A DNA stretch of 64,000 nucleotides, taken from assembly GCF_018881595.1 (NCBI RefSeq), contig NZ_JACVQA010000007.1, forward strand, positions 1 through 64,000, read 5' to 3'. Within the stretch, counting starts at the first letter, position 1. Each line of letters opens with the position of its first letter. Positions 31,506-51,230 of this stretch are shown in pieces. The DNA comes from Polynucleobacter sp. UK-Gri1-W3. Lineage in GTDB: Bacteria; Pseudomonadota; Gammaproteobacteria; Burkholderiales; Burkholderiaceae. The translations under genes and the position numbers were made by a program. The notes below the pieces were generated by a model, which made no database searches, was not told where the DNA came from, and was given only the letters and a program-made list of their open reading frames with translations.

Positions 31506-32495
31506 TTATGAGAGCAAGTGCTTAACGCCAGCTTGCTCTTCGAGTAATTCATTCAATGTATGTGTCATGCGCTCACGGGAGAATTCATCGATCTCTAGGC
31601 CTTCGATCATTTTGTATTCGCCGTTTTCGCATACCACTGGGAAGCCATAAATGACTTCAGCAGGAATATCGTATTCGCCCTTAGACGGAATACCCATAGT
31701 TACCCACTTACCATTTGTGCCCAGAACCCAATCATGAATATGATCAATGGCTGCATTCGCTGCAGAGGCTGCAGAAGAAAGGCCGCGAGCTTCGATGATG
31801 GCTGCACCACGCTTACCAACGGTAGGGATGAAAACATCTTTATTCCATGCTGCATCGTTGATGGAATCTTTTACTGATTTGCCATCGATGGTTGCAAAGC
31901 GATAGTCTGGGTACATTGTTGGGCTATGGTTACCCCAAACAACTAATTTCTCAATATCGGCAACAGGCTTATTCAACTTGCTGGCTAATTGTGAGAGAGC
32001 GCGGTTGTGATCGAGGCGCAACATTGCAGTGAAGTTTTTCGCAGGAATATCTGGAGCAGATTTCATAGCGATGTAAGCGTTGGTGTTTGCTGGGTTGCCA
32101 ACAACCAATACTTTTACAGTCTTCTTAGCAACTGCATTTAATGCCTTGCCTTGAGCTGTGAAAATTTGTGCATTAGCGGAGAGTAAATCCTTGCGCTCCA
32201 TACCAGGACCACGTGGACGTGCGCCAACCAAAAGGGCGACATCGATATCTTTAAAAGCAGTCATTGGGTCAGAGTGAGCTGTCATACCTGCCAAGAGTGG
32301 GAATGCGCAGTCTTCTAGCTCCATCATTACGCCAGTTAAGGCTTTTTGAGCTTTTTCATCAGGAATCTCAAGCAATTGCAGGATGACGGGCTGATCTTTG
32401 CCCAAAAGGTCGCCATTGGCGATACGGAATAAAAGGGAATATCCGATTTGACCGGCTGCACCGGTTACGGCGACACGCATTGGGGCTTTTGCCAT
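31506..32495 (-). CDS. mdh: Malate dehydrogenase
   Basis: NAD-dependent oxidation of malate to oxaloacetate in the TCA cycle. The 329-residue protein is of the larger, bacterial/plant-cytosolic type, with the [15 protein letters not shown] nucleotide-binding motif (about 12-26), the substrate-binding [14 protein letters not shown] loop and the catalytic histidine in [13 protein letters not shown]. The ATG at 32495 with GGAG 9 bp upstream is preferred over the in-frame ATG at 32510. It is divergent from a GntR-type regulator, with a perfect palindrome in the shared intergenic region. Confidence 0.97.
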
Positions 32496-32593
32496 TACTG
32501 AGAACTCCAAATGAAGGTTATGTAGGTTAAGTAAAGAAAACTTTTCTATTATCCATTCAAGTGTAGGGACTTTAGCTTTACACTGTCAATGAT

Positions 32594-32607
32594 GTCTTAT
32601 ATAAGAC
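32594..32607. promoter_or_regulatory. 14-bp perfect palindrome, candidate GntR operator
   Basis: GTCTTATATAAGAC at 32594-32607 is an exact palindrome. It lies in the divergent mdh-gntR gap, about 99 bp upstream of the mdh start and 47 bp upstream of the chosen gntR start. GntR-family regulators commonly bind short palindromes of this form, often with an AT-rich centre. The target set is inferred. No second exact copy was found by eye in the rest of the window. Confidence 0.6.
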
Positions 32608-32653
32608 TAGAATTGCCTTGAATTTTATCCAATTGACGCGGTTTGGAGTTAAT

Positions 32654-33391
32654 TTGTCTGATGTGACTTTGCCCATTGCCTCATTTAGCCCTCTGTACGA
32701 GCAGATTAAAGCGATGATTTTGGCTAGTTTGCAAGCCTCGGAGTGGCTGCCAGGGGCGGCTATTCCCAGCGAAATGGAGCTTGCAGCCCGTTATGCTGTC
32801 AGCCAGGGCACCGTTCGCAAGGCCATTGATGAGCTTGCCGCTCAAAATCTCTTAGTTCGAAGACAGGGTAAGGGTACCTTCGTAGCCACCCACCAAGAAG
32901 ACGAATGGCAATACCGTTTTTTGCGTTTAGCACCTGATTCTGGTGAAAAATTCCATCTCACCAATCAATTTTTATCCTGCGAAAAGACTAAAGCATCAGT
33001 CTATGTGGCCAATTTGCTTAAATTAAAGGCAGGTGACCCCATTATTCATATCGACCGAGTTCAGAGTTTTGCGGGCAAACCCATTGTTTTTGAAGAGATT
33101 TTTCTGCCTGGAGTCCGTTTTAAGGGTTTGGATCTTGAGGCTCTCAATACTTGGCATGGTCCGATGTATGCTTTTTATGAGGGGCATTACGCCACACATA
33201 TGGTGCGCGCAGAAGAAAAAATTAAGGCTGTGGCTGCTGATGCGGTGCTGGCTAAACATTTGCATCTGAAGGAGGGCGCGCCGCTCCTTTCGGTAGAGCG
33301 TGTGGCATTTACCTACGGGAATAAACCAGTAGAAATTCGGCATGCAAGGTACGACACTTTAGAGCAGCATTACGAGAACAAATTGAACTAA
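32654..33391 (+). CDS. GntR/HutC family transcriptional regulator
   Basis: A 245-residue regulator with an N-terminal winged helix-turn-helix (about residues 10-75; IPSEMELAARYAVSQGTVRKAIDELA is the DNA-binding part, here described by position) and a C-terminal UTRA effector domain (about 95-240), the HutC subgroup. The effector is unknown. The first start codon in frame is TTG at 32618, but TTG at 32654 is preferred because GGAG lies 5 bp before it. The gene is divergent from mdh and lies directly before sdhC, suggesting control of TCA-cycle genes. That role is inference. Confidence 0.9.
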   Translation: MSDVTLPIASFSPLYEQIKAMILASLQASEWLPGAAIPSEMELAARYAVSQGTVRKAIDELAAQNLLVRRQGKGTFVATHQEDEWQYRFLRLAPDSGEKFHLTNQFLSCEKTKASVYVANLLKLKAGDPIIHIDRVQSFAGKPIVFEEIFLPGVRFKGLDLEALNTWHGPMYAFYEGHYATHMVRAEEKIKAVAADAVLAKHLHLKEGAPLLSVERVAFTYGNKPVEIRHARYDTLEQHYENKLN

Positions 33392-33401
33392 GATAAACCA
33401 G

Positions 33402-33423
33402 AACTGCAGAAGAACTACAGAAG
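33402..33423 (+). repeat. Two 11-bp tandem repeats after the gntR gene
   Basis: AACTGCAGAAG (33402-33412) and AACTACAGAAG (33413-33423) are adjacent and start 10 bp after the stop codon at 33389-33391. A partial third unit (AGCTA) follows. The pattern resembles the post-stop repeats at 26074 and 30996. Confidence 0.75.
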
Positions 33424-33503
33424 AGCTAAATCAGTAAAAACCAGTAATTCACCCCTTTAAACGCTAAAAAATCCCCACCACCCCTAAGGTTTCCAATAGA
33501 ATA

Positions 33504-33518
33504 TGTTGCGATACAACA
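33504..33518. promoter_or_regulatory. Inverted repeat upstream of sdhC
   Basis: TGTTG (33504-33508) and its exact complement CAACA (33514-33518) flank a 5-base spacer, CGATA. The site is about 40 bp upstream of the sdhC ATG. A TAGAAT that could serve as a -10 box lies just before it at 33497-33502, but no good -35 box was seen. An operator is possible and unproven. Confidence 0.35.
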
Positions 33519-33557
33519 AAACCACAATGAACCTCCACCTAAAGATAGAGATTACCC

Positions 33558-36167: not shown

Positions 36168-36872
36168 ATGAGTGATATCCGTATATTCGAAATTTACCGC
36201 TACGATCCAGATGTCGATGCTACTCCGCGCATGGAACGCTATGAGTTAGAGCTCACTGGTGAGCGTATGTTGTTGGATGCTTTGATTTCTTTGAAGAAGC
36301 AAGACGAATCGATTTCTTATCGTCGTTCATGCCGTGAAGGTGTGTGCGGTTCAGATGCAATGAACATTAACGGTAAAAATGGTTTGGCTTGTTTGACCAA
36401 TATGTTGACTTTGCCTAAGGTCATCACATTGCGCCCATTACCTGGCTTGCCAGTAGTACGCGACTTGATCGTTGACATGACTTTGTTCTTCAAGCAATAC
36501 TTGTCCATCAAGCCTTACTTAGTAAACGACAACCCGCCGCCTGAAAAAGAGCGCCTCCAGAGTCCTGAAGAACGTGAAGAGTTGAATGGTCTGTATGAGT
36601 GCATCTTGTGCGCTTCATGCTCAACTTCATGCCCATCTTTCTGGTGGAACCCAGATAAGTTTGTTGGTCCAGCCGGCTTATTGCAGGCCTATCGCTTTAT
36701 TGCTGATAGCCGCGATGAGGATACCAACCAGCGTTTGGATAACTTGGAAGACCCATACCGTTTGTTCCGTTGCCACACCATCATGAATTGCGTAGACGTA
36801 TGTCCTAAGCACTTGAATCCAACCAAGGCAATTGGCAAGATCAAGGAGTTGATGGTCCGCAGGGCAGTATGA
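36168..36872 (+). CDS. sdhB: Succinate dehydrogenase iron-sulfur subunit
   Basis: Electron-transfer subunit of complex II. The 234-residue protein has the plant-type [2Fe-2S] motif SCREGVCGSDAMNI with a fourth cysteine at CLTN (about residues 56-85), and two ferredoxin-like motifs near the C terminus (CILCASCSTSCPS and CVDVCPKHLNPTKAI) for the [4Fe-4S] and [3Fe-4S] clusters. Its last 4 bp overlap the start of sdhE. Confidence 0.98.
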   Translation: MSDIRIFEIYRYDPDVDATPRMERYELELTGERMLLDALISLKKQDESISYRRSCREGVCGSDAMNINGKNGLACLTNMLTLPKVITLRPLPGLPVVRDLIVDMTLFFKQYLSIKPYLVNDNPPPEKERLQSPEEREELNGLYECILCASCSTSCPSFWWNPDKFVGPAGLLQAYRFIADSRDEDTNQRLDNLEDPYRLFRCHTIMNCVDVCPKHLNPTKAIGKIKELMVRRAV

Positions 36873-37138
36873 CCCTCGGTAATGCAGAGTTATATCGTCT
36901 AAAGAGTGATGCTCGCAGGGGCTTACTAGAGAACGATTTAATTCTGCAGCGTTTCTTTGAGCGTTACGGCACTCAGTTAAGTGTAGAGGATGGAAGAGTT
37001 TTGAGCCAGTTATTGGCCTTAGATGACAACGACTTAATGGATTTATTAATTGGTCGCAAAGACTCAGTAGCAAGCTTAGAGAAAGAGATGCAGGCTGACT
37101 CTTTCAAAATGATTTTACAAAGGCTGAGAGAGAAATAA
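36869..37138 (+). CDS. sdhE: FAD assembly factor SdhE (CptB family)
   Basis: An 89-residue soluble protein that promotes covalent flavinylation of SdhA. The RRGLLENDLILQRFFERYG segment (about residues 16-34) holds the conserved RGxxExD core of the family. The 4-bp overlap with sdhB (ATGA) shows translational coupling with the subunits it helps to assemble. Confidence 0.95.
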   Translation: MTLGNAELYRLKSDARRGLLENDLILQRFFERYGTQLSVEDGRVLSQLLALDDNDLMDLLIGRKDSVASLEKEMQADSFKMILQRLREK

Positions 37139-42028: not shown

Positions 42029-43186
42029 ATGGCAAATTCAAAGACACCTTTGGTTGGTTTAGTTGGCTGGCGCGGTATGGTTGGCAGCGTTCTCATGGAG
42101 AGAATGTTGGCAGAGAAAGACTTCGACTTTATCGAGCCCATTTTCTTTAGTACTAGTCAAGCAGGTGGAGAAGTCCCGCTCTTGAACGGTCAAAAAGTAA
42201 CTAAGAGTGAAAGCATTTTGCAGGACGCCAATGATATTAAGGCGCTCTCACGCTGCGACATTATTCTCACTTGCCAAGGTGGCGATTACACGAATGATAT
42301 TTTTCCTAAGCTGCGTGCAGCTGGGTGGAATGGCCATTGGATTGATGCCGCCAGTGCATTGCGCATGAAAGATGACGCAGTATTGATTCTCGATCCGGTT
42401 AATCGTCCGGTGATCGACAAAGCTTTGGCTGCAGGTGGCAAGAACTGGATTGGCAGTAATTGCACTGTGAGCTTGATGATGATGGCTATGGGTGGCTTAG
42501 TAAAGGCTGATATGGTTGAGTGGATCAGTGCGATGACTTACCAGGCGGCTTCAGGTGCTGGTGCACAGAATATGCGCGAGTTGCTTTTGCAAATGGGTGC
42601 ATTGCATGACAGCGTGGCAACTGAATTAGCTGATCCTTCATCATGGATTTTGGATATTGATCGCAAAGTGACTGAGACATTGCGCTCTGCCGATTTTCCG
42701 AAAAAGAATTTCCGCAACACAGCGTTAGCAGGCAGCTTGATTCCTTGGATTGATGTGCCGGTTGAGAACGGTCAGACTAAAGAGGAGTGGAAGGGTGGAG
42801 CTGAGTTCAACAAGATCTTGGGTCGTCCGGCATTTCGTACTCCTGGCAGCATTCCGGTAGATGGTTTATGTGTGCGCGTAGGTGCGATGCGCTGCCATTC
42901 ACAAGGCTTAACTGTTAAGTTGAAAAAAGACATTCCCCTTAAAGAGATCGAGGCGATTTTGGCCGCAGATAATCAGTGGGTCAAAGTGGTTCCAAATGAT
43001 CGTGAGACTACTGAGCGTGATTTATCTCCCGCTGCGGTAAGTGGCACATTGACTGTGCCGATTGGCCGCTTGCATAAGATGGCGATGGGCCCAGAATATT
43101 TAGGTGCTTTCACAGTTGGCGACCAACTCTTGTGGGGTGCTGCTGAGCCATTGCGCCGCATGCTGCGCATCTTGCTTGAGAAGTAA
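42029..43186 (+). CDS. asd: Aspartate-semialdehyde dehydrogenase
   Basis: NADPH-dependent reduction of aspartyl phosphate to the semialdehyde that feeds lysine, threonine, methionine and cell-wall diaminopimelate synthesis. The 385-residue protein has the [14 protein letters not shown] dinucleotide motif, the catalytic cysteine in [12 protein letters not shown] and the conserved C-terminal [10 protein letters not shown] region. It is the longer, gammaproteobacterial-type enzyme. The fimV-like gene begins 10 bp downstream. Confidence 0.97.
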
Positions 43187-43196
43187 TTCAACTTTT

Positions 43197-44582
43197 ATGT
43201 CTCGCATTAGCCAGCTAAGCTTATTAAAGCTCCTGAGCGTTGTTTTGCTTGGCTGGTCAACTATCGCTGGAGCGATTACTTTAGGCGCTCCTCAGCTGCA
43301 GTCCCGTCCCGGAGAACCTCTACGCGTTGAGATCCCGATTCGAGTCGGTGCCGATGAGCGTAGTGATTTATCCAGTCTTAATGTGGCAATCCCAAATAAA
43401 GCAGCTTACGAGCGCTTAGGTATTTCTCAAAAGATTCTCGATCTCAATCCTCAAGCGATGGTTTATCGCAATCGCCAAGAGCAACTCATGGTGTTGGTCG
43501 AGACGGTGAATTCTGTCCCAATGACCGATGATCCATTTATAGATATTCTGGTGAATCTTCATTGGTCGAGTGGAAGTCTTACTAAGACATTTACATTGCT
43601 ATTGGGCGATGTGCAAAAAATCACTGTAAAGCCTGGTCAAAGCTTATCTGAGATTGCCGCCATTATTGCTCCGCAGCTAGAGGGGGCGACCTTAGATCAA
43701 ACCATGATGGCTTTATATAAAGCTAATCCTGATGCGTTTGCAAGCGGCAGTATTAATCGTCTGGCTGCTGGCGCTGAATTAACAAAACCAAGTCAGGCGC
43801 TCCTACGCTCCATTAGCCCTGCAGAAGCAAATCAGTTTGTTGCAGATGCGAATGAACAATGGCGCCAAGATCATGGTGATAAGGATGGAGCTACAGGACC
43901 CTCTAAATCCGCCAACGCTAAATCTACCGAAGCTTCGCCTAAGGATCTCCTAAAGATTGGTTCGAGCGCTGAAGGCAATGATCAAGAGCGACGCTATACA
44001 GAAGAGTTGGTGGCTCAAGAAAAAATGCTGGAGCAAACAAAAGCTCGCGTTGCTGAGTTAGAAAAGAATATTGCTGATCTACAAAAGCTTTTAGATAAAT
44101 CCAAAGAGAAAAAAGCGGTAGATAACAACTTTGGCCTAGGTGGCTTTGGGCCAGCGATCCTTGCTCTCACCTTGATTGCTTTGACTGGTGTATTGCTCTG
44201 GGGATTGGCTCGCAATGCTCGACGCTCAGAGATGCCAAGCTTTCACGCGGATACCCATCAAGCTCCCAAAGATGAAAAGACTGCACCTGGATCTCCTTTT
44301 GAAATGCCGGCACGTGCCAAGGCATTATTCGAAGGAATTGACCTCGATCTTACAAAGCCTGTAAAAGAAGTTCTCGCAACCACAACTGCTCCGGTATCAA
44401 ACCCCCTGGCAGATACCTTGCGAGTGAAATTGAATTTAGCGCGCGCTTACATCACGATTGAAGATTTTTCTGCAGCTAAAAAGTCAATTGAAGAAGTATT
44501 GCGTGTAAGTAATTCTGTTGATCCAGCAATTACCATTGAAGCGCAGGGCTTGCTGGCAGAGATTTCGCATCGCAATACCTAG
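43197..44582 (+). CDS. fimV: FimV/HubP-type polar scaffold protein (short form)
   Basis: A 461-residue protein with a signal or anchor segment at the N terminus and a conserved beta domain (about residues 20-135). A LysM-like peptidoglycan-binding region follows (about 138-205, starting VKPGQSLSEIAAII), then a coiled-coil stretch (about 260-300), one transmembrane helix (about 315-337) and a TPR-like FimV C-terminal domain. FimV scaffolds localise polar proteins and affect twitching. This one is much shorter than Pseudomonas FimV and lacks the long acidic middle. The ATG at 43197 is preferred. An earlier frame from 43104 overlaps asd and encodes no family residues. Confidence 0.87.
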   Translation: MSRISQLSLLKLLSVVLLGWSTIAGAITLGAPQLQSRPGEPLRVEIPIRVGADERSDLSSLNVAIPNKAAYERLGISQKILDLNPQAMVYRNRQEQLMVLVETVNSVPMTDDPFIDILVNLHWSSGSLTKTFTLLLGDVQKITVKPGQSLSEIAAIIAPQLEGATLDQTMMALYKANPDAFASGSINRLAAGAELTKPSQALLRSISPAEANQFVADANEQWRQDHGDKDGATGPSKSANAKSTEASPKDLLKIGSSAEGNDQERRYTEELVAQEKMLEQTKARVAELEKNIADLQKLLDKSKEKKAVDNNFGLGGFGPAILALTLIALTGVLLWGLARNARRSEMPSFHADTHQAPKDEKTAPGSPFEMPARAKALFEGIDLDLTKPVKEVLATTTAPVSNPLADTLRVKLNLARAYITIEDFSAAKKSIEEVLRVSNSVDPAITIEAQGLLAEISHRNT

Positions 44583-47398: not shown

Positions 47399-48196
47399 AT
47401 GTCGAAAATAACTACGCTCTTTAAGGAGCTAAAAGCAACAGGCAAAAAAGGATTGATTCCTTTTATTACTGCTGGAGATCCAGATCCTAAGCAAACCGTT
47501 GAATTGATGCATGCTTTAGTGCGTGGCGGCTCAAGCGTGATTGAATTAGGCGTGCCATTTTCAGATCCAATGGCTGATGGTCCAGTGATCCAGAGATCAT
47601 CGGAGCGCGCATTGACTCAAGGCGTCACTTTGCGCGGTTGTTTAGAGATGGTGAAAGAGTTTCGTAAGAGCGACGTCAATACACCGGTTGTTCTGATGGG
47701 CTATGCAAACCCAGTTGAACAAATGGGGGCGGAGCATTTTGCAGCGGAAGCGAAGGTTGCTGGCGTTGATGGTGTTCTCGTGGTCGATTACCCACCAGAA
47801 GAGTGTGTCGACTTTGCAGCTCGTATGCGCGCTGCTGGTATTGACCCGATTTTCTTGTTAGCGCCGACTTCATCACATGAGCGCATTAAAGAAGCAGCCA
47901 AAATTGCTTCTGGTTATCTATATTACGTCTCTATGAGAGGGGTTACTGGTTCTTCTAATCTCAATACTCAGGATGTGGCCAGCATCATCCCGAAAATTCG
48001 TGAAGAGACCGACATTCCTATCGCTGTTGGCTTTGGAATCAGCGATGCAGCTAGCGCCAAGGCGGTATCGGTGAGTGCTGATGCCGTTGTGATTGGTAGC
48101 CGAATTATTCGTCTTTTAGAAGATGCACCCCCTGGGCAGGCAGTACAATCACTGGAAACCTTCATTCGTGAGATTCGCGACGCATTGGATAGTTAG
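47399..48196 (+). CDS. trpA: Tryptophan synthase alpha chain
   Basis: TIM-barrel lyase releasing indole from indole-3-glycerol phosphate for TrpB. The 265-residue protein has the catalytic glutamate in [17 protein letters not shown], the catalytic aspartate near [11 protein letters not shown], and [12 protein letters not shown]. It is 9 bp after trpB and 6 bp before accD. Confidence 0.98.
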
Positions 48197-50423: not shown

Positions 50424-51230
50424 ATGATTCGTTTACCAAGCTTTTTTAAGCGAAAAACCCAGTCTGATGACCTTGAATTAGGTTCAAGGGGTGGTCGCAC
50501 TGCCAAAAGAGCGGCCCCGCGAAGTTTTCAGCGCGCAGCAGAAGCCGAAGAACTTGCCCTCACAGAAGATCCAGAACAACAACGAGCGCGTCACCGCCTT
50601 ATCGGTGCAGCCGTTTTGGTGTTGATTGCAGTTGTTGGCTTACCCCGTATTTTGGATAACAAACCAAAGTTATCGCCTAACGATATTGCCGTCAACATTG
50701 TGACGAGCTTGCCAATTCCAGGAACTGAAGCAAAACCTGATGAGAAACCTAAGGCTGAAGTTGTTGCAGAGCCAGCAAAAGAAGTTCCTAAGATTGCAGC
50801 TACTCCCGAAGTAAAGCCAGAGGCAAAAGCAGACGCTAAGGCGGAAACTAAGCCAACAGTACCTGCAGTAAATAAATCCGGAACATTGGGATTGGCGGCG
50901 GGCGAAGAGGTGGTTGCTACTGCAAGTACCAAGACCGAGACAAAACCTAAAGCGGATGATGTAAGCAAACCTGCAGCCTCAAATGGATCAGGTAAGTACG
51001 TTATTCAGATAGGTGCTTTTGCTTCTGAAGACAGAGCTAAAGGTTGGATTGCAAAGCTCAAAGATCAAAAGATTCCAAACTACGTCTTAAATAAGACTGG
51101 TGCTGATGGTGCAAAGTTGTATGTATTACGTGCAGGTCCATACACCGATAAAGACACCGCAGAAGCGGCGGAAAAGAAAATTAAGGCGATGGGTCTTTCA
51201 CCAAGACTCGTCGAAACCGGTAAGCAGTAA
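50424..51230 (+). CDS. dedD: SPOR-domain protein (DedD-like)
   Basis: A 268-residue inner-membrane protein with a basic cytoplasmic N terminus (about 60 residues), one transmembrane helix (about 60-77), an Ala/Lys/Glu/Pro-rich periplasmic linker and a C-terminal SPOR domain (about 190-265, starting KYVIQIGAFASEDRA). SPOR domains bind denuded septal peptidoglycan, so it is probably a cell-division protein. The position between folC and cvpA is that of E. coli dedD. Its stop overlaps the cvpA start by one base. Confidence 0.92.
   Translation: MIRLPSFFKRKTQSDDLELGSRGGRTAKRAAPRSFQRAAEAEELALTEDPEQQRARHRLIGAAVLVLIAVVGLPRILDNKPKLSPNDIAVNIVTSLPIPGTEAKPDEKPKAEVVAEPAKEVPKIAATPEVKPEAKADAKAETKPTVPAVNKSGTLGLAAGEEVVATASTKTETKPKADDVSKPAASNGSGKYVIQIGAFASEDRAKGWIAKLKDQKIPNYVLNKTGADGAKLYVLRAGPYTDKDTAEAAEKKIKAMGLSPRLVETGKQ

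Follow-up and report, generated by a model that had tools for sequence, protein, structure and literature searches.

A palindrome between mdh and a HutC-type regulator gene in Polynucleobacter is very probably an SdhR-type operator

Introduction

Which protein, if any, recognises the short palindrome that separates mdh from a divergent regulator gene of the GntR family in Polynucleobacter, and which other genes carry the same mark? We address this question for a 64,000-nucleotide stretch of DNA from this genus (the window) by comparing it with the rest of its genome and with related genomes. Judged from sequence comparison, the palindrome, GTCTTATATAAGAC, very probably serves as operator for the HutC-type regulator next to it, a protein of the SdhR type. 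The SdhR motif has already been published, and the site described here adds a case of a known type. The comparison also names a concrete set of candidate operators: mdh/sdhR, aceA and acnB in this genome, and icd, isocitrate lyases and others in its relatives.

The palindrome and its surroundings

Inspection of the sequence confirms what the first-pass annotation had said of this locus, namely that a perfect 14-bp palindrome lies between mdh and a HutC-type GntR gene (Table 1). The same annotation had seen the exact sequence only once in the window and not before sdhC, and on both points it was correct: the nearest match elsewhere in the window, at 51084-51097, has one mismatch, and the 166 bp upstream of sdhC hold nothing better than a match with six mismatches, so that a site before sdhC was rejected. 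A single match with three mismatches lies at window position 48111.

The palindromic form of the site is not significant in itself: there are 8 perfect 14-bp palindromes in the window, and 30 simulations under an order-1 Markov model gave 5.0 on average (range 1-11). As a specific sequence, GTCTTATATAAGAC is more than chance; an order-1 model expects it 0.0037 times in the 2.3-Mb genome. Another of the perfect 14-bp palindromes, GCTTTATATAAAGC at 43710-43723, has the centre TTATATAA in common with the site and lies inside an open reading frame (43104-44582).

Table 1. Positions in the window of the operator core and of the genes and promoter elements around it
Feature	Position	Strand	Basis or remark
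SdhR-type operator core GTCTTATATAAGAC	32594..32607	.	Core of the published motif; 8/12 outer half-site letters differ
mdh, malate dehydrogenase, divergent from sdhR	31506..32495	-	Sequence and first-pass naming
sdhR, regulator with GntR HTH and UTRA domains	32654..33391	+	Probable TTG start, inferred from sequence
Candidate mdh promoter: TTGACA 32584-32589, 18 bp, TACACT 32560-32565	32560..32589	-	Consensus match only
Candidate sdhR -10 TAGAAT, abutting the operator	32608..32613	+	By eye; present in most of the 30 close relatives compared
Gap between sdhR and sdhC, no site	33392..33557	+	Mismatch scan

The mechanically called frame of sdhR runs from 32618 to 33391. We prefer a TTG start, which has GGAG a few bases upstream, and with this start the operator ends 46 bp before the gene. 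Downstream of sdhR, the sequence and the first-pass naming give sdhC, sdhD, sdhA, sdhB, a small sdhE-like frame and gltA; the small frame (36869-37138) resembles the sdhE assembly factor by eye. On the other side, the operator sits 4 bp upstream of the candidate mdh -35 element. The search for an mdh promoter found one consensus match against a mean of 1.8 in shuffled sequences, and the -35 region is conserved in 47 loci of the genus.

A match to the published SdhR motif

The passage available from PMC4494728, which cites Suvorova et al. 2012, J Bacteriol, describes SdhR as a factor of the HutC subfamily with the motif TCTTATGTCTTATATAAGACATAAGA, a 'palindrome with additional symmetry'. GTCTTATATAAGAC is the exact 14-letter inner core of that motif, and the regulator of the window has the HutC-type domain make-up, its GntR and UTRA domains scoring 70.9 and 103 bits, both above the gathering score. 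Literature searches with the 14-mer and with its inner 12-mer returned PMC4494728 alone, which was also the only relevant result for SdhR together with GntR; a search on the wider regulon gave nothing on SdhR, judged by titles and the beginnings of abstracts, and the main text of PMC5343134 does not name SdhR.

The match is not complete. The outer half-sites of the motif, TCTTAT and ATAAGA, are mostly lost here (8/12 letters differ, the flanks being identical to those of locus L211), a loss that concerns the site and not the protein. The right outer half-site is present at aceA, and nearly the full 26-letter motif is found in relatives, Ralstonia and Caballeronia among them. Among the 80 named loci introduced below, the outer half-sites are often present outside Polynucleobacter and absent in most loci within it.

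By the motif core beside its gene and its GntR/UTRA domain make-up, the regulator is a putative SdhR. Named members of the same domain family fit less well, as all NCBIfam scores of the window's regulator for UTRA regulators are far under the curated cut-offs: 114.1 bits for the histidine utilization repressor HutC (TIGR02018) against an equivalog cut-off of 220, and 114 bits for PhnF against 157. The usual GT-4 nt-AC form is missing from the SdhR motif. The regulator of Polynucleobacter sp. JS-Polo-80-F4 is 96% identical to that of the window. Among solved structures, the best match to an SdhR profile is PDB 3cnv, a 'putative GntR-family transcriptional regulator' of 162 residues (E 5e-61, profile positions 79-239; the next-best match has E 3e-26). 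Unlike the full GntR and UTRA regulator, it comprises the effector domain only; it probably represents this domain of an SdhR orthologue, and we take its source organism to be Bordetella bronchiseptica.

Conservation beside the regulator gene

Two sets of loci, which have organisms in common, were used to follow the site beyond the window. The first holds 100 loci from 93 distinct genomes (the best 30 of a genus search, the best 30 of a family search and 40 taken for variety); the second holds 80 named loci, which ranked highest among 593 confirmed, from Polynucleobacter, Ralstonia, Cupriavidus, Pandoraea, Burkholderia, Caballeronia, Undibacterium, Massilia, Herbaspirillum, Rhodoferax, Hydrogenophaga and others. 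If up to two mismatches are allowed, a site is present in the 450 bp before the regulator match in 89/93 distinct genomes and upstream of the regulator in 79/80 named loci (43 exact, 32 with one mismatch, 4 with two, the last with four), counts that are not independent because the genomes are related. The four upstream regions of the first set without a site are those of L174, where transposase-like sequence was seen by eye upstream of the regulator, of L210, where the regulator is a 34% paralogue, and of L208 and L209 (genomes G046 and G078), in which mdh diverges from a regulator 47-50% identical with no site between the two; each of these last genomes has one exact copy of GTCTTATATAAGAC elsewhere, which in G046 adjoins isocitrate lyase. 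In the 500 bp that follow the regulator gene, no site with up to two mismatches was found in the 76 evaluable of the 80 named loci, and one of these has a match with three.

The sequence also travels with the gene. The exact 14-mer occurs in 77/101 genomes of the genus, against 2/101 for a control with reversed letters, and these 77 are all among the 92 genomes with an SdhR-like gene, defined as a regulator match of at least 46% identity; it occurs in 0/9 genomes without one (Fisher p 6e-7, kinship uncorrected; G003, G009, G015, G021, G025, G043, G062, G075 and G100, several of them incomplete). Of the nine, G003 and G043 were also scanned at one mismatch, and neither has a site. Within the locus itself, conservation over the 47 genus loci is on average 1.89 bits per column at the site, compared with 1.34 for the 60 columns to its left, where the promoter of mdh lies, and 0.70 for the 40 columns to its right.

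Further sites in the genome, the genus and other genera

Four matches with one mismatch occur in the genome of the window: two precede aceA and acnB, respectively, one lies in the gap between rplM and the OsmC gene, and one falls in the open reading frame around window position 51084. There is no bulk enrichment at up to two mismatches, because 11 sites stand against 27 control sites, and since these counts show no excess, the case for SdhR rests on position and conservation. The small regulon or degenerate site that the first-pass annotation had expected agrees with the near-copies before aceA and acnB, both outside the window, and its operator reading is right in kind, given the published SdhR core and the co-occurrence with the regulator gene.

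Upstream of aceA (isocitrate lyase), CTCTTATATAAGACATAAGA is present in 30/30 fetched loci (41 genomes searched). Before acnB (aconitase), a site with no or one mismatch is present in 24/29 evaluable loci of the 30 fetched from 41 genomes searched; it is absent in L098, L104, L106, L108 and L109, and L110 was incomplete and uncounted. The acnB site overlaps the -35 region that belongs to a TATAAT 13 bp downstream. The copy at 51084-51097 was rejected as a site, as it lies inside the open reading frame 50424-51230 and drifts among relatives: among the 20 loci fetched, its own included, after a search of 41 genomes in which 31 matched, one mismatch is seen in 5, two in 3 and at least three in 12. 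The drift of this coding-region copy is a negative control for the conserved promoter sites.

A further site with two mismatches was seen between a yccA-like gene and rlmD (L017 2994-3007; C14:62493-62506 of the same genome), with CAATCTA at its left. With up to three mismatches it is present in 16/18 fetched loci (18 of the 41 genomes searched gave a match), a biased count because several of the matches comprise little beyond the site. By eye, a short minus-strand frame about 60 bp away may be its target.

Nine genomes from other genera (G109, G111, G119, G137, G144, G153, G203, G217 and G238) together hold 34 sites with up to one mismatch, against 4 for the reversed pattern. By neighbour, they fall at mdh/sdhR (8), the NADP-isocitrate dehydrogenase gene icd (7), a monomeric isocitrate dehydrogenase (1), isocitrate lyases of two types (7), acnB (3), malate synthase G (1, with pepE on the opposite side) and argF (3, with DUF3579 on the opposite side in 2); the 4 remaining sites, all in G153, lie near a response regulator, near an acyl-CoA dehydrogenase and, in two cases, within open reading frames. 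The isocitrate node is the common theme of these predicted targets. Three of the sites (L295 1465, L299 1514, L300 1665) lie upstream of argF, a gene for ornithine carbamoyltransferase that has no obvious TCA-cycle role, and the gaps upstream of argF at these three loci hold no RF02278 small RNA at E up to 0.001.

Proposed mode of action and alternatives

We consider it highly probable, as one joint reading of the sequence evidence, that an SdhR operator lies at mdh/sdhR, that sdhR is autoregulated, that aceA and acnB belong to the same regulon, and that SdhR represses and is released by a metabolite. The inverted TCTTAT half-sites would be bound by an SdhR dimer, and one site would serve the divergent mdh and sdhR promoters. 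The copies before aceA and acnB would extend this control to a small regulon centred on malate and isocitrate. Repression by SdhR probably works through promoter occlusion, a mode suited to acnB because the site covers the -35 region, and to sdhR because the site stands directly before TAGAAT. Despite the name of the regulator, there is no operator at sdhC in this window; as sdhCDAB is without a site of its own, sdh would be reachable only by read-through from the sdhR promoter, which could occur. A metabolite from this part of the cycle probably releases SdhR, as the family and the targets suggest; our guess is a di- or tricarboxylate, and the literature passages retrieved name no SdhR ligand.

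Another reading of the site holds that no protein is bound, the palindrome being promoter letters or a transcript hairpin kept by overlap with promoters. The site indeed touches the candidate -10 of sdhR as well as the promoter of mdh, but it is better conserved than its flanks and recurs at aceA, acnB, icd and other genes at varied distances from them, and we give this reading almost no credence. Slightly less remote, though still very improbable, is the proposal that another regulator of TCA-cycle promoters uses the palindrome and that the GntR gene is a mere neighbour: G046 and G078 keep an exact copy without a close SdhR, yet the site stays beside the regulator gene across many genera, the 14-mer is missing from all nine genus genomes that have no SdhR-like gene, and the motif was published for SdhR, according to the passage of PMC4494728.

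With SdhR as the preferred binding protein, the sign of its effect on mdh has to be weighed separately. The regulator might activate mdh while repressing its own gene, as the operator lies just upstream of the TTGACA and the genus conserves this -35 region. Against this, the acnB site covers a -35 region, which suits repression, and DasR and YvoA, HutC-type relatives with solved structures, are both named as repressors. We regard activation as unlikely, but far less so than the two readings above; either sign is possible for mdh, given the operator 4 bp upstream of its -35, and activation there can coexist with repression elsewhere.

A site beside a growth-slowing small RNA

The one-mismatch site in the rplM/OsmC gap (L012 2995-3008; C1, 155094-155107 of the same genome) lies 17 bp upstream of a match to the Rfam family RF02278, 'Betaproteobacteria toxic small RNA' (L012 2977-2917, minus strand, 52.8 bits, gathering score 50). 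Among the best 30 genus loci of this RNA (61 genomes searched), 28 keep the site with up to one mismatch, one with two and one with four. In 17 further genus loci the picture is mixed: the site stands 15-17 bp ahead of the RNA in 5 (three with one mismatch, two with two), and 12 (L423-L434) are without it at that place; 10 of these 12 come from genomes with an SdhR-like gene, and L425, L427 and L428 have instead a two-mismatch match 105-122 bp upstream. Sites with up to two mismatches are found in 34/35 loci of one group of the genus, and 12 other genus loci are without. Most variants differ from the core by one change (GTCTTATACAAGAC, GTCTTGTATAAGAC, GTCTTCTATAAGAC, CTCTTATATAAGAC), and they resemble those of the sdhR promoter. 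In other genera, the 120 bp upstream of the best 30 RF02278 copies hold no match with fewer than four mismatches, and these copies were rejected as SdhR targets.

The other-genus copies are preceded by TTGCRTYGCA-like and TGTGTATA-like elements. In Polynucleobacter, similar elements, TTGCGTTGCACCA ... TGTGTAGAAT, lie farther upstream, also in several of the loci without a site, and from their position the site would fall about 10-25 bp after the start of transcription, in the position of a roadblock; it probably lies just after that start. Whether SdhR also controls this double-hairpin RNA in a large part of Polynucleobacter is a matter on which we lean, by a small measure, towards doubt. A rival reading takes the palindrome at this locus as a hairpin of a longer RNA form. 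Passages of PMC5688073 and PMC10987360 report that overexpression of the Burkholderia cenocepacia homologue ncS27 attenuates growth and that ncS27 accumulates in biofilm and under growth arrest. According to passages of PMC11722255, the Bordetella RNA S17, which shows similarity at the 5' end, arises from a longer form by processing. The term 'GntR' is absent from the main text of these three papers, and our literature search found no link between SdhR and the RF02278 RNA.

This site is the one fresh lead of the analysis, limited to part of the genus. Were it real, a regulator of the TCA cycle would have been recently wired to a growth-slowing small RNA, the two being joined within a single genus, and the gain of this regulatory link would be directly testable. 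Elsewhere in the same genome (C6; L354 1473-1858), a match to the cspA thermoregulator that stays below the threshold (40.9 bits, where 78 are required) adjoins a 40-base stretch that is 88% alike to part of the small-RNA locus used as query.
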